Source: a virus. Taken from it: a DNA stretch of 36,803 bases. The DNA is taken from IMG/VR virus record IMGVR_UViG_3300042868_009078, positions 1 to 36,803 of that record. The stretch is one strand, 5' to 3'. The stretch's first letter is position 1, and every line of letters starts with the position of its first letter. Below are positions 6,358 through 24,550 of this stretch, one piece after another. The notes beneath the pieces are model-generated. The model worked only from the letters and a program-made list of their open reading frames with translations. It had not been told where the DNA came from and did no database searches. The position numbers were made by a program, and so were the translations under genes.

Positions 6358-7098
6358 ATGAAACTTAAAATAATTGGAACGGGAAGTTCCGGCAATGCTT
6401 ACATCCTCAGTAATGGGGATGAAGCTTTGTTAATCGAATGCGGGGTCAACATAAATGAGATTAAAAAAGCATTGGATTTCGATTTAAGTAAGGTCGTTGG
6501 GTGCATAGTAACACATGAACACAAAGATCACTGCAAGGCTATTGAATGTGTAATGAAATTAGGAATAGATGTTTATTCTGGACCAGCTACGCTTCATTCA
6601 ATAGGACTGATAACACAACCTAGAGCAAGACCTTTCAAAGCACATCAAATAATCCAAATTGGCGGTTTCAAAGTCATGGCATTTGATGTAAAACACGATG
6701 CAGTTGAACCTTTAGGATTCATTATTCATCACCCTGATTGCGGCAAGGTTTTATTTTTAACCGACACCTATTTTTGCGAATACACTTTCAAAGGTTTGAA
6801 CAACATCATAATTGAAGCAAATTACTCAAAGCAAATCATTGACCAAAAATACGGATCCGATAGTGGTAAAGAATTTTTGAGAAATAGAATTCTAAGATCT
6901 CACTTTTCGCTTGAAAATTGTAAGGATATGTTGTCGGCAAATGACTTGTCAGCAGTCAACAACATTGTTCTAATCCATTTATCAGATAGCAACTCAAACG
7001 AAAAGCAATTTCAAAAAGAAGTTGCCGAACTGACTTGCAAAAACGTAACCGTCGCACGTAAAGGATTGGTTATTCCATTCTTTAAAACACCTTTTTAG
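6358..7098 (+). CDS. MBL-fold metallo-hydrolase, candidate recombination nuclease
   Basis: A 246-residue metallo-beta-lactamase-fold protein. The N-terminal GTGSSGNAYIL and the metal motif HEHKDH (53-58) are plain. Further likely ligands are His113, Asp136 (FLTDT) and His207 (IHLSD). It resembles the YycJ/WalJ-like group of MBL hydrolases, which includes nucleases. The gene begins 2 bases after recT, so it may supply the nuclease activity that RecT systems usually pair with (as RecE or lambda Exo do). The partnership is inferred. A cyclic-nucleotide or RNA substrate is not excluded. Confidence 0.85.
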   Translation: MKLKIIGTGSSGNAYILSNGDEALLIECGVNINEIKKALDFDLSKVVGCIVTHEHKDHCKAIECVMKLGIDVYSGPATLHSIGLITQPRARPFKAHQIIQIGGFKVMAFDVKHDAVEPLGFIIHHPDCGKVLFLTDTYFCEYTFKGLNNIIIEANYSKQIIDQKYGSDSGKEFLRNRILRSHFSLENCKDMLSANDLSAVNNIVLIHLSDSNSNEKQFQKEVAELTCKNVTVARKGLVIPFFKTPF

Positions 7099-20981: not shown

Positions 20982-21593
20982 ATGGATATGAAACTAACAA
21001 TCAAGCAAGAAGCATTTTGTCAAGCGTATGTACGTTTGGGGGATAAGTCAGCTGCTTATCGTGAGGCTTACAACTGCTCTAGGTTGAAAGATAAATCCAT
21101 TCATGAACTTGCATGTAAGCTATCAACTAACGTCAAGGTAACCGCAAGGATAGAAGAGCTTCAAGCTAAGGTTTCAAAGATTGCTGAAAAGAAGTTTAAT
21201 ATTACAGCAACTGAAATGCTTCGACACTTGAACATTCTTCGCCAGTCTCGAATTGATGAATATGTTGAGTATTATGAATTTGATGTAACCAAAACCGAAA
21301 CAACCGGAACTGGCAAGAATAAAGTCACATCTACAACGACCGAACGCAAAACCGAAATCAGGTTTAAGACTTTCGACAAATTAACTCCAGAGCAGTTGAT
21401 GTGTATTGAAAGCATAAAGCAAAACCGATACGGTGAAATTGAGTTGAAGCTTCACGGCAAAGAGTGGACCATCGAGAAGATCAATAAGCACATTGGCTTC
21501 TACGAAAAGGACAACGAACAAAAGAACTCCATCTTATCTGCTGAAGACAAAGAGAAACGTATTGCCGAACTAAAAGCTAAATTACTCAAGTAG
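20982..21593 (+). CDS. terS: terminase small subunit
   Basis: A 203-residue Terminase_2-type small subunit. The N-terminal helix-turn-helix region (LTIKQEAFCQAYVRLGDKSAAYREAYN) and the following helical block recognise packaging sites, and the C-terminal helices would oligomerise. ATG 20982 and ATG 20988 (MDMK) are both possible starts. The promoter -7 element ends only 5 bases before the first, so the mRNA is probably leaderless. TerL is 1470 bases away, past the RNA island, rather than adjacent. Confidence 0.88.
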   Translation: MDMKLTIKQEAFCQAYVRLGDKSAAYREAYNCSRLKDKSIHELACKLSTNVKVTARIEELQAKVSKIAEKKFNITATEMLRHLNILRQSRIDEYVEYYEFDVTKTETTGTGKNKVTSTTTERKTEIRFKTFDKLTPEQLMCIESIKQNRYGEIELKLHGKEWTIEKINKHIGFYEKDNEQKNSILSAEDKEKRIAELKAKLLK

Positions 21594-21654: not shown

Positions 21655-21740
21655 TAACCTATTAAAAATTAACTAAACGATTTAGTCATGAAGTAATTTC
21701 AAACAATCTAAAAGCTGTTCAGATATGAATGGCTTTTTTT
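21655..21740 (+). ncRNA. candidate small terminated RNA upstream of the tRNA cluster
   Basis: Downstream of the weak promoter-like site lie a 6-bp hairpin (ACTAAA 21672-21677 with TTTAGT 21681-21686, tight CGA loop), a two-codon ATG AAG TAA at 21688-21696, and an intrinsic terminator. No larger frame exists. A short transcript of about 85 nt is the simplest reading. The start point is approximate. Confidence 0.4.
21710..21740 (+). terminator. intrinsic terminator
   Basis: AAAAGCTGTTCA (21710-21721) pairs with TGAATGGCTTTT (21726-21737) over loop GATA (two G-T pairs), followed by T-rich sequence to 21740. It separates the terS transcript from the tRNA cluster. Confidence 0.8.
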
Positions 21741-21745
21741 AAAAC

Positions 21746-21868
21746 GGGGAAGTAGCTCAGTAGGATAGAGCGCTTAACGTGTCTGTAGGGGAAGCTTTGA
21801 AAAGTCTAGGAAAGTAAAAGCACCGTAAAGCACTACAGAGGTCAGCGGTTCGATCCCGTTCTTCTCCA
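21746..21868 (+). tRNA. tRNA-like RNA with expanded anticodon domain (isotype unclear)
   Basis: Canonical parts: acceptor GGGGAAG (21746-21752) with CTTCTCC (21861-21867), D-arm GCTC (21755-21758) with GAGC (21768-21771), a 4-base variable segment GGTC before the T-stem, T-stem AGCGG (21844-21848) with CCGTT (21856-21860) and loop TTCGATC, then ACA. In place of a 17-nt anticodon arm there is a 10-nt linker (21772-21781) and a 7-bp stem, TCTGTAG (21782-21788) with CTACAGA (21833-21839), closing a 44-nt loop. The acceptor sequence GGGGAAG recurs at 21788-21794. It could be an intron-containing tRNA, a decayed tRNA, or a tRNA mimic. The anticodon cannot be assigned. Confidence 0.55.
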
Positions 21869-21870
21869 CA

Positions 21871-22018
21871 AATAAAGCATATTTACCCTGCAATAAGTGT
21901 AATGATTGGGGATAGTCAGGTAATACCCAGTTTGCCAAAGGACACGGCATATATTCTGCGAGCCGAAATGCGAAGAAGTCCAAAGTGTAGGTTGACAGCT
22001 CGGAAAGACGGGCAACAT
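21871..22018 (+). other. spacer in the tRNA-like cluster with local hairpins
   Basis: About 148 bases with no gene. Local pairings: TGGG with CCCA around 21917-21931, GGAC (21940-21943) with GTCC (21978-21981) enclosing CGGC with GCCG, and a hairpin from 21991 (GTTG...GGGCAAC). No acceptor-like 7-bp pair plus T-loop was found, so I do not call a tRNA here. Confidence 0.35.
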
Positions 22019-22102
22019 TGGAATAATGGTAAATGTGGTTAAATCAGCAGACTGTAAATCTGTCGCCTTTCGGCTTTGTGGGTTCGATTCCCTCTATTCC
22101 AA
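22019..22102 (+). tRNA. tRNA-Tyr (anticodon GTA)
   Basis: Acceptor TGGAATA (22019-22025) pairs with TATTCCA (22095-22101). The anticodon arm GCAGA-CTGTAAA-TCTGT carries GTA. A long class II variable arm (GCC-TTTC-GGC) fits tyrosine. T-loop TTCGATT (22083-22089) is normal, and the T-stem has one T-T mismatch. The D-stem is weak. The sequence after the acceptor is ACA, as in its neighbours. Confidence 0.85.
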
Positions 22103-22118
22103 CAACAACCAAAGGGAA

Positions 22119-22199
22119 GGATAACTGAAAGATTTGTTATTGATGTCTAGCTAACATCGAAAGTGAATTTTCTTAGAAGTACAATAAGATAGGTTATCC
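22119..22199 (+). tRNA. degenerate tRNA-like fold lacking a D-stem
   Basis: Acceptor-like GGATAAC (22119-22125) pairs perfectly with GTTATCC (22193-22199), followed by G-CA. An anticodon-arm-like hairpin GATGT (22142-22146), seven-base loop CTAGCTA, ACATC (22154-22158) is present, and a T-arm-like stem TCTTA (22171-22175) with TAAGA (22185-22189) has a nine-base loop without TTCGA. No D-stem is evident. Standard tRNA rules are not met. It may be a decayed tRNA, a tRNA mimic or a chance fold. Confidence 0.4.
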
Positions 22200-22209
22200 G
22201 CAGAAATAT

Positions 22210-22328
22210 AGCAGTATGGCGAAAATGGCAAACGCTCACAGGTTGGAATAGTAAAAGCTGAATTAACAGCCATCTCCAGTACATTTTATTCTGGTTATTC
22301 CTTACAGGTTCGAATCCTGTTACTGCTA
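22210..22328 (+). tRNA. tRNA-like RNA (leucine-type D-arm) with expanded anticodon domain
   Basis: Acceptor AGCAGTA (22210-22216) pairs perfectly with TACTGCT (22321-22327). D-arm GCG (22219-22221) with CGC (22233-22235) in a TGGCGAAAATGGCAAACGC context is like tRNA-Leu. T-stem ACAGG (22304-22308) with CCTGT (22316-22320) and loop TTCGAAT are canonical, then ACA. Between them a stem GGAATAGT (22245-22252) with GTTATTCC (22294-22301) encloses hairpins GCTG-AATTAA-CAGC (22257-22270) and CCAG...CTGG (22276-22294). The inner AATTAA loop could present a TAA anticodon, but the spacing is abnormal. Confidence 0.55.
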
Positions 22329-22334
22329 CAAAAT

Positions 22335-22521
22335 AAAAGCAATCCACCCCGATAAGTCGGGAATGTGAAACCTTTCGGGGAGTTGGTAAAGCCTCGTCAT
22401 ATCATTTCGCTAAGTGCCGATTATAGGTCCGGGGCATTGAAAATTTAAGTCGTGTGGCGTTAGGGTTAGATTTTAGAGCGTCGAAACCCTTATAAAAAAT
22501 TAAATGTGGATTGCTTTTTTT
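22335..22521 (+). ncRNA. candidate structured RNA closed by a 13-bp helix
   Basis: AAAAGCAATCCAC (22335-22347) pairs perfectly with GTGGATTGCTTTT (22506-22518), then a T-run to 22521. Inside are hairpins CCCGA-TAAG-TCGGG (22348-22361), CGGGG with CCTCG (about 22376-22396), TGCC with GGCA (about 22415-22437), and AGGGTT (22461-22466) with AACCCT (22485-22490). No protein frame fits. The ends suggest a 187-nt RNA, or the terminator of the tRNA transcript with a large loop. No known family recognised. Confidence 0.5.
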
Positions 22522-22540
22522 AAACTTTAAAACCAGAAAA

Positions 22541-22723
22541 ATGATAGGACTTAACAACGGGGCAATTTTTATAGACGGCAAGCATTGCACTAATCCAGAA
22601 CTCATCGGACTGGCATTATTAGACTTTGCTGAAACACTTGAAAATGATGGCATCGCAATTTCTTTAAAAGAAAGTGATGTGTTTGTTGAAAATGTAGGTA
22701 AATGCGTGTACTATGAAAATTGA
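22541..22723 (+). CDS. small hypothetical protein
   Basis: A 60-residue protein from ATG 22541 (MIGLNNGAIFIDGKHCTNPELIGLALLDFAETLENDGIAISL...), with a mixed beta/alpha pattern. The in-frame 22511 start is rejected because it lies within the T-run of the upstream RNA. It overlaps the next gene by 11 bases. No family recognised. Confidence 0.6.
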   Translation: MIGLNNGAIFIDGKHCTNPELIGLALLDFAETLENDGIAISLKESDVFVENVGKCVYYEN

Positions 22724-23062: not shown

Positions 23063-24550
23063 ATGCGGGACATAACAGATGATGATATAAGGGATTCTGA
23101 AATATTAGAACTTGAAACTCTTTTGAAAGAAAGAGACATTGATATTTTCAGAAACAATCTAAATGTTATAACTGAAGAAACGAATCCAAATTACAAACTT
23201 CTTCATGACGCAATCTCTCAGCAAAAATACGGCATTGTAAACGGAAAACTAGATTTGATTTCTGGACATAGAGGAGCTGGACTTGAAGGCTCTTCCCGTT
23301 CTGGAAAAACATGGTCCGGAATAGATATTATCATTTGGCTATGTCTTTACGTTGAGGTAAACGGTTGCACAATCAACATCTATCGGGAAACCTACAACGA
23401 ATTCAAAACAACTCTGTACGATGATTTCAAACGTCGCCTTGACGATTTCGGATTACCTAATAAATTCCATGAAGCTGAAGAAATAAAAAGCTTCAAAATT
23501 GGCAAATCAAAGATATTCTTCATTGGTGACGGTAAGCATGGTGGAGGTTGTGATTACGCTTTTTTTAATGAGGTAATGTTTATCAAAGAGTCAGTATTTA
23601 ACCAGGTTAAAATGCGATGTCGAAAGTTCTGGTGGGCCGATTATAACCCGTCATTTACTGATCACTGGTTTTTTGATAAAGTGTTAGGTCGTCCAGATGT
23701 TGCTTTTCTTCGAACTACATTTCATGATAACAAACATATTTCGCCACAGGAACGACATGAGATTATTATAACCGAACCTTGGAAGCCAGGATCATATATC
23801 GTAAAAGACAATCTAATTCAATGCTACAATAAAGACACGGGAAAAGTTGAGCCAATCTCAAAAACAAACCAGCCGCCGCCTCATGTTGAAAACATAGCCA
23901 ACGGAACGGCCGATGAGGATTATTGGAAAATTTACGGATTAGGTTTACGCGGAGCTATGAAAGGATTGATTTTCCCGAATGTGTTTTGGATTGATAAGTT
24001 TCCAGAAGATAAAGCGCCAATATTTCCGAATGATTTTGGGTTTACAACAGATCCAAATACGTTGGTTAAGTATGGAGAAGATGATCACAACATATGGATT
24101 GAGCCGCTTTGTTACGAACCTATCGAAACTCCAGATGCTTTGGCTTCTTTACTCGATAGCTTAGGTATTGACAAATCAAAAGATATCATTCCGTGTGATT
24201 CGGCCGATAAATACACTGGCGAAAATAAGGGAACTGTTGAAATGGTCAAGGGATTGAAAAAGCTAGGGTATCAAAGAGCTTATAAAATAAGCAAAACAAA
24301 GTCAGTTATGTTCTGGCTTACATCGATGAAGAAAAAGAAAATCCACATTGTAAAAAACCATCTTTATAAGCAAGCATTGAAAGAACAGCAAAACTATAAA
24401 ATGAAAGAGATTGCCGGAATATCAATTAACCAGCCATCTGATAAATGGAACCACATTTGGGATGCCGCTCGTTATGGCCACATCGCTCACAATTCCCCAT
24501 CTCAAACATTTGCAACCGATGAAGAAACTATCAAATCAATAAATTACTAA
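23063..24550 (+). CDS. terL: terminase large subunit
   Basis: A 495-residue packaging motor. The ATPase has Walker A GSSRSGKT (76-83) and a Walker B-like YAFFNEV (about 165-171). The C-terminal RNase H-like nuclease shows CDSADKYTGENKG (about 378-390), and further acidic residues are present in DAARYGH near the end. It cuts and pumps DNA with the small subunit at 20982. TerL and TerS are separated by the RNA island. Start chosen at ATG 23063 because the long N-terminal region fits the family. Confidence 0.95.
   Translation: MRDITDDDIRDSEILELETLLKERDIDIFRNNLNVITEETNPNYKLLHDAISQQKYGIVNGKLDLISGHRGAGLEGSSRSGKTWSGIDIIIWLCLYVEVNGCTINIYRETYNEFKTTLYDDFKRRLDDFGLPNKFHEAEEIKSFKIGKSKIFFIGDGKHGGGCDYAFFNEVMFIKESVFNQVKMRCRKFWWADYNPSFTDHWFFDKVLGRPDVAFLRTTFHDNKHISPQERHEIIITEPWKPGSYIVKDNLIQCYNKDTGKVEPISKTNQPPPHVENIANGTADEDYWKIYGLGLRGAMKGLIFPNVFWIDKFPEDKAPIFPNDFGFTTDPNTLVKYGEDDHNIWIEPLCYEPIETPDALASLLDSLGIDKSKDIIPCDSADKYTGENKGTVEMVKGLKKLGYQRAYKISKTKSVMFWLTSMKKKKIHIVKNHLYKQALKEQQNYKMKEIAGISINQPSDKWNHIWDAARYGHIAHNSPSQTFATDEETIKSINY

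Follow-up and report, generated by a model that had tools for sequence, protein, structure and literature searches.

Phages encode tRNAs that counter tRNA-targeting defences (PMC11555353, PMC10264068), and the phage RNAs GOLLD and ROOL are conserved structured RNAs that stand beside tRNA islands (PMC12286853). Non-canonical tRNAs have been reviewed with no mention of phages (PMC7609411). In bacteria, alanine identity is conferred by A73, G2-C71, G3-U70, and G4-C69, and leucine identity by A73, A15-U48, G18G19, and A20a, independent of the anticodon; E. coli tRNA-Leu without its anticodon and variable arms is still charged (PMC9976931). The locus described here is an island of tRNAs, tRNA-like RNAs without a decoding arm, and structured RNA modules. 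A search of the open-access literature returned no report of such phage RNAs.

The window, which is the whole stretch of DNA analysed, is a 36.8-kb viral record (IMGVR_UViG_3300042868_009078; 36,803 nucleotides), and the island sits in its terS-terL gap, with all island features and flanking genes on the plus strand. The left border is terS, encoding the small terminase subunit (20982-21593; Pfam PF03592, 5e-13; PHROG terminase small subunit), and the right border is terL, encoding the large subunit (23063-24550; Pfam PF03237, PHROG 2). The first small gene of the terL operon (22541-22723) begins MIGLNNGAIFIDGK and has no PHROG match. Relatives of the window TerL sit in Flavobacterium and Psychroflexus genomes and at 79 viral-contig loci, which places the phage, by sequence relationship, in a flavobacterial group. 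A CI-like S24 repressor encoded in the window suggests a temperate lifestyle. One relative, L462 (RXKI01000139.1), has a TerL 73% identical to that of the window phage and is binned as a Neisseriaceae MAG, probably wrongly. Nekkels_1, with a terL 61% identical, has no island, and its terS and terL abut.

A terminator-like hairpin (11 bp, score at least 20) with a U-run lies at 21711-21740 and ends 5 nt before the first tRNA-like RNA, T1. Two similar terminator ends border the island, ATATGAATGGCTTTTTTTAAA at 21723-21743 and ATGTGGATTGCTTTTTTTAAA at 22504-22524 (86% alike), and the island cassette looks as if inserted between these copies. Elsewhere in the window, a metallo-beta-lactamase-fold protein (PHROG 392; 6358-7098) is encoded in the recombination gene cluster beside a RecT-like protein. 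It was considered as a phage-own RNase Z and rejected, since it matches only generic MBL-fold or metal-dependent hydrolase families.

T1 (21746-21868) is a class-I tRNA-like RNA with an Ala-type acceptor (G3-U70, A73) and intact D- and T-arms, in which a 72-nt structured domain takes the place of the anticodon domain. T3 (22210-22328) is a Leu-type tRNA-like RNA in which 68 nt stand where the anticodon and variable regions belong; the distance from D-arm to T-arm is normally about 22 nt. Read directly from the sequence, T3 carries A73, U48 before the T-stem, and a D-loop AAAAUGGCAAA with A15, G18G19, and A20a. Between them lies a canonical class II tRNA-Tyr with a GTA anticodon (22019-22103). 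All three exceed the RF00005 gathering score of 29 bits, at 41.7 bits for T1, 35.3 bits for tRNA-Tyr (at 22020-22101), and 35.1 bits for T3. In its default mode, ARAGORN sees only tRNA-Tyr in the island, which has the 5-bp stem and 7-nt loop that T1 and T3 do not, and it misses both of the latter. Its intron option yields two "tRNA-Ser" calls whose introns are artificial.

An earlier note, made from the sequence alone, had proposed an island of tRNA-like RNAs between terS and terL, and Rfam covariance models and relatives bear this out. Its near-canonical tRNA-Tyr and its two RNAs with complete acceptor, D-, and T-arms around an expanded anticodon domain both hold up. Its suggestion that N-C-A directly after the acceptor is a shared feature fails, since relatives carry ACG, ACT, or TCA and a three-way junction carries ATA or GAT at this place. 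Single-sequence folding energies of the two expanded tRNA-likes are unremarkable (z -0.4 and -1.6), and the case for these RNAs as tRNA-likes rests on comparison rather than on folding energy.

Expanded RF00005 matches occur in about 15 related phages. Two approaches, RF00005 and a composite pattern that combines acceptor, T-arm, and D-stem, reveal many RNAs of 97-149 nt in the terS-terL gap of relatives; with the composite pattern, 765 kb of related loci contain about 30 tRNAs and tRNA-likes, and the shuffled loci none. The 27 island tRNA-likes parsed for a decoding arm comprise 22 Ala-type and 5 Leu-type members, labels that derive from sequence features. Their inner region spans 14 to 96 nt, compared with about 22 nt in a normal class-I tRNA. 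A decoding arm was taken as a 5-bp stem closing a 7-nt loop, together with U33 and purine 37; it appears anywhere in this region in 0 of the 27, and shuffled inner regions yield 0.8 by chance. At the canonical place of the anticodon stem, T1 and T3 reach at best 3 of 5 pairs.

What stands in place of the decoding arm varies among relatives, from a 60-nt domain to a UUCG tetraloop or a 3-bp hairpin. The arm of L007 is a C(UUCG)G hairpin. Four relatives (L009, L047, L090, L037) have an anticodon arm reduced to a 3-bp hairpin (UCA/UGA, CCA/UGG, CUU/AAG) and a hairpin inserted in the D-loop, and L018 combines such a D-loop hairpin with a long inner region. The cultured Polaribacter phage Danklef_1 encodes a 58-nt tRNA-like RNA without the entire anticodon arm that scores 50.4 bits against the tRNA model and is annotated in its record as "tRNA-OTHER", undetermined. 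In Danklef_1-5, this RNA (L492:2511-2568; MT732458.1 43546-43603) lies about 1.8 kb upstream of terS and immediately follows a terminator-like hairpin. On this comparative evidence, T1, T3, and their relatives are real, conserved, non-decoding tRNA look-alikes. The tRNA mimics offered by the earlier note are thereby well supported, with stems kept and the decoding arm absent in 27 of 27.

The folds also bear the marks of selection. Acceptor, D-, and T-stems are kept in relatives while inner stems change compensatorily, and random decay of the stems, the refutation set beforehand in the earlier note, did not appear. Compensatory cells number 8, against 4 broken ones, in L083/L462/L085 (including an acceptor-stem swap in L462), 4 against 4 in L009/L047/L090, 2 against 0 in both L018/L037 and L011/L036, and 1 against 0 in L089/L101. 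T-stems of island tRNA-likes vary in sequence and stay paired. The inner domain of T1 has a homolog in L490 that shares the core UUGAAAAGYCUAGRAAAGUA and replaces GCUUU/AAAGC with GUCUU/GAGAC. In L489, the tRNA-like RNA in the slot of T3 has an identical acceptor (AGCAGTA/TACTGCT) and a different inner domain.

Isotype identity is retained in the parts that remain. G3-U70 is present in 20 of 22 Ala-type island members, T1 included and L462 and L473 excepted, although these counts are not independent because relatives share ancestry. The same members carry A73 in 20, G2-C71 in 22, and G4-C69 in 20 of 22 cases (end bases of T1 and L007 read directly from sequence), which matches the bacterial alanine identity set (PMC9976931). 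T3 has the features of bacterial tRNA-Leu identity, and its relatives share A15, U48, G18G19, A20a, and A73. Charging of the island tRNA-likes with Ala or Leu is plausible because these identities are kept and because the truncated tRNA-Leu described above is still charged.

RNA module C (22332-22521) is a 187-190 nt RNA with a 12-bp closing helix and a U-run that ends 19 nt before the next start codon in the window. The earlier note had seen a terminated structured RNA of 187 nt here, and it proves to belong to a conserved, strongly covarying family of about 40 homologs. In alignment A1 (19 sequences), 95.2% of cells are paired and 29 of 47 pairs have changed on both sides; when the structure is slid by 1-3 columns, pairing falls to 33-45%. 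Covariance model R1 finds the roughly 40 homologs among many TerL relatives and Flavobacterium prophages; F. cupreum CCM 8825 and Flavobacterium sp. 1355 are lysogens with RNA C. A wide spread of RNA C in Flavobacteriaceae chromosomes was considered and rejected, as it occurs in 1 of 397 genomes, that of a known prophage host. BLAST of the island or of RNA C against annotated phages returns only tRNA-Tyr matches and no RNA C. By its covariation, RNA C is a conserved RNA family without an Rfam entry, and none of modules A, B, and C has an Rfam match even at E up to 5.

RNA module B (22119-22199) was described in the earlier note as a D-less cloverleaf. As a tRNA, it is rejected: it has no T-arm, and its fold is a three-way junction in which the AAGUACAA loop is conserved. 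Its alignment is 96.6% paired, with 7 pairs changed on both sides, and slid controls reach 39-49%. Homologs in L007, L018/L023, and L489 show, by this comparison, that the junction is maintained in three further phage lineages. RNA module A (21872-22018) contains in its 3' part a hairpin (21991-22016) of the form ACAG-NNNN-GGAAAGAC-NNNN-AA that recurs in relatives. Its 4-bp stem differs in nearly every phage and covaries fully while the GGAAAGAC loop is fixed, and it stands directly upstream of tRNAs in L043, L462, L473, L101, and L026. No homolog was found for the rest of module A. Further conserved, structured-looking modules occupy the terS-terL gaps of relatives, namely D (L005, L026, L031), E (L083, L480, L489), and F (L011, L042, L490).

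The order of these elements, read in 14 phages, is one of RNA modules alternating with tRNAs or tRNA-likes (T). The window reads T1-A-Tyr-B-T3-C. Relatives that share module B read T-B-Met-C (L007), T-B-Met (L018), and Phe-B-T(Leu)-E-C (L489), those with module A read T-Phe-A-Leu-C (L101), Met-T(Leu)-A-Tyr-C (L043), and T-A-Leu-C (L462), and the others read T-E-T(Leu)-C (L083), E-Phe-C (L480), D-Ala-C (L005), D-T-C (L031), T-F-Leu-C (L011), T-F-Ile-C (L042), and T-F-C (L490). The same slot is filled by genuine tRNAs (Tyr, Met, Phe, Leu, Trp, Ala) or by tRNA-likes, which are interchangeable, and tRNA units directly flank the RNA modules, as a punctuated layout demands. A terminator-like hairpin (score at least 20) with a U-run precedes, by a few bases, 14 of 26 Ala-type tRNA-likes, that of Danklef included, compared with 48 of 7800 random positions (0.6%).

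Conserved folds, the absent decoding arm, the alternation of modules with tRNA units, and the RNA C family are established at the level of sequence comparison. The best explanation, to which we assign a probability of roughly 55%, is that the region is a non-coding RNA array whose modules are punctuated by non-decoding tRNA mimics that are processed like tRNAs and perhaps charged. T1 would derive from a tRNA-Ala-type and T3 from a tRNA-Leu-type ancestor, each having lost codon reading but not the features that tRNA-processing enzymes recognise, namely acceptor stem, T-arm, D-stem, and D/T-loop elbow. Host RNase P and RNase Z would cut the array at each tRNA or tRNA-like, and these cuts would set the ends of the RNA modules. 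CCA would be added to the tRNA-likes, which might then be charged with Ala or Leu, as AlaRS and LeuRS do not read the anticodon, yet could not deliver the amino acid to a codon. Because such punctuation needs only the top half of the tRNA, the region below the elbow would be free for other, rapidly changing RNA domains. Transcription of T1 would need read-through, since a terminator-like hairpin precedes it; these hairpins and the closeness of RNA C to start codons point to transcription through terminator-like signals. Against this explanation stand the read-through that T1 would require, the RNA C copies with no upstream tRNA unit, and the elaborate inner domains, which punctuation alone leaves unexplained.

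RNA C may also be a candidate cis leader of the terL operon, judging from its positional regularities. In this tentative reading, which could extend to the whole array, the closing helix and U-run would terminate transcription unless late conditions allow read-through; it is compatible with the tRNA-punctuated array and does not exclude it. The distance from the end of RNA C to the next start codon has a median of 22 nt and is at most 60 nt at 32 of 36 loci, despite differences in the gene families that follow, and this gap leaves no room for a promoter. The start of RNA C lies -2 to 31 nt after the 3' end of a tRNA or tRNA-like in 23 of 33 copies. About 10 of 33 have no upstream tRNA unit, so punctuation is not needed for RNA C, and four distinct ones among them have a promoter-like TAnnTTTG motif just upstream. 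The 12-bp closing helix followed by a U-run fits such a leader, but an RNA that acts in trans and ends in a terminator of its own would have the same appearance, and RNA C contains no recognised ligand or signal and has no match in Rfam.

A role as decoys or sponges appears unlikely, although several observations point toward it. By mimicking the acceptor, elbow, or CCA end of Ala- or Leu-tRNA, the tRNA-likes would absorb a host tRNA-directed factor, such as a synthetase or a defence toxin acting on the acceptor end or elbow by modification or cleavage, and shield the real tRNA pool. Consistent with this, the acceptor sequence itself is conserved, unlike T-stem and inner domain, which diverge, the inner domains diverge between phages at a speed resembling an arms race, and phage tRNAs are known to act against tRNA-targeting defences, of which the canonical tRNA-Tyr that shares the array is a known target. 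Anticodon nucleases, however, are excluded as the factor because the tRNA-likes have no anticodon loop to serve as substrate. The analysis identified neither a defence partner nor a host toxin that would match, and a logic based on the acceptor alone leaves the alternation with RNA modules unexplained.

Chance survival of decaying pseudo-tRNAs is very improbable: highly variable inner regions and one acceptor mismatch in some copies (L044, L018) would fit it, but acceptor, D-, and T-stems are kept in about 20 phages while T-stem sequences change, compensatory changes occur, T1 and L490 have an inner core in common, and shuffled sequence gives no matches. Least credible of all are functional tRNAs whose introns are spliced out to yield an anticodon, the first suggestion of the earlier note; 5 of 22 Ala-type relatives (L035, L042, L044, L071, L103) do keep a 5-bp stem at the normal place, where a loop intron is formally conceivable, but T1 and T3 have no such stem, the inserts are far too short for group I or II introns, the window proteins scanned with Pfam include no splicing endonuclease or RNA ligase, and no anticodon could be regained by splicing in relatives that have a UUCG hairpin (L007) or a 3-bp hairpin (L037, L090, L009) for an arm, or no arm at all (Danklef_1). 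The absence of a decoding arm in all 27 island tRNA-likes, with varied replacements, makes introns and random decay alike unlikely.

Expanded tRNA-likes extend beyond this phage group. Viral contigs were scanned with an exact pattern for class-I tRNAs whose D- and T-arm are 42-72 nt apart, and at least 120 stretches matched. Among the matches listed, which hold 1 of the 10 matching loci from a complete scan, probably cover a small part of the viral collection, and may form a mixed set, there are 85 expanded forms whose acceptor stem is sound; a canonical anticodon arm is missing from 63 of the 85, compared with 8 of 132 normal-length controls. Among the same listed matches, G3-U70 occurs in 6 of 85 expanded and 5 of 132 normal-length class-I forms. 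With these counts, and with L473 and L462 lacking G3-U70, alanylation is not a general requirement; a rule that expanded forms arise only where the synthetase ignores the anticodon holds in this phage family, with those two exceptions, and was rejected in general. The expanded pattern occurs in 2 of 100 Flavobacteriaceae genomes, and the normal-length pattern in 100 of 100.

Several individual cases stand out. In two Flavobacteriaceae genomes, an expanded class-I tRNA-like (L477:1494-1605, L478:1494-1611) has a sound acceptor stem and no obvious phage gene within 1.5 kb. A set of unrelated phages (L228, L249, L263, L279, L284, L294 with two copies, and L310) carries a recurrent type of expanded class-I tRNA, distinguished by an additional hairpin and an ACAGCAA-like joint ahead of the anticodon region, and some of these have a displaced, normal-looking loop (CUGUUAA, CUGGUAA). 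The 68-kb viral contig L086 has 36 tRNA genes in a 14-kb stretch, one of which is a 108-nt Ala-type expanded form.

A broader proposition, to which we give somewhat less than even odds, is that tRNA-like RNAs of phages form a broad class that has gone unrecognised, in which the top half is kept, with its determinants for processing, for the elbow, and often for charging, and the anticodon half is an exchangeable domain, and that flavobacterial phages array these with new non-coding RNA families between terS and terL in a tRNA-punctuated layout. If true, shedding the decoding arm while keeping charging and processing signals would be a new phage use of tRNA architecture, and the tRNA-likes would give easy access to the long-standing problem of what phages need tRNAs for. 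Such forms are easily mis-annotated, as in Danklef_1, or missed, as by ARAGORN without its intron option. Studies of late-gene control or packaging could readily take up the conserved RNA C family at the head of the terL operon, and the cultured Danklef_1 with its arm-less version makes the idea directly testable.

Among known systems, the island resembles canonical phage tRNA arrays and defence-countering phage tRNAs (PMC11555353, PMC10264068) in its phage-encoded clustering, its genuine tRNA-Tyr, and its complete acceptor, D-, and T-arms. Unlike those tRNAs, T1 and T3 have no anticodon arm with which to take over decoding from a cleaved tRNA. Archaeal and eukaryotic intron-containing tRNAs likewise carry extra sequence in the anticodon domain, whereas the island forms have no anticodon stem to restore and have relatives with deleted or tetraloop arms. 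tmRNA shares with the island forms an Ala-type acceptor with G3-U70, a tRNA-like top half, and another RNA domain in the anticodon region, but the island forms have a normal D-stem, only about 70 nt of inserted RNA, and no recognised tag reading frame. Identity with tmRNA was rejected, the best Rfam match being permuted tmRNA at a chance-level 13 bits against a cut-off of 47. GOLLD and ROOL parallel the modules as conserved structured phage RNAs beside tRNA islands, but RNA C is about 190 nt long and without an Rfam match, and the tRNAs of its island are partly non-decoding; these and other Rfam families were likewise rejected for A, B, and C. Finally, mitochondrial armless tRNAs and other non-canonical tRNAs (PMC7609411) have a missing or remodelled arm on which processing and charging enzymes nevertheless act; these tRNAs have given up the D- or T-arm and retained the anticodon, and the island forms do the opposite.
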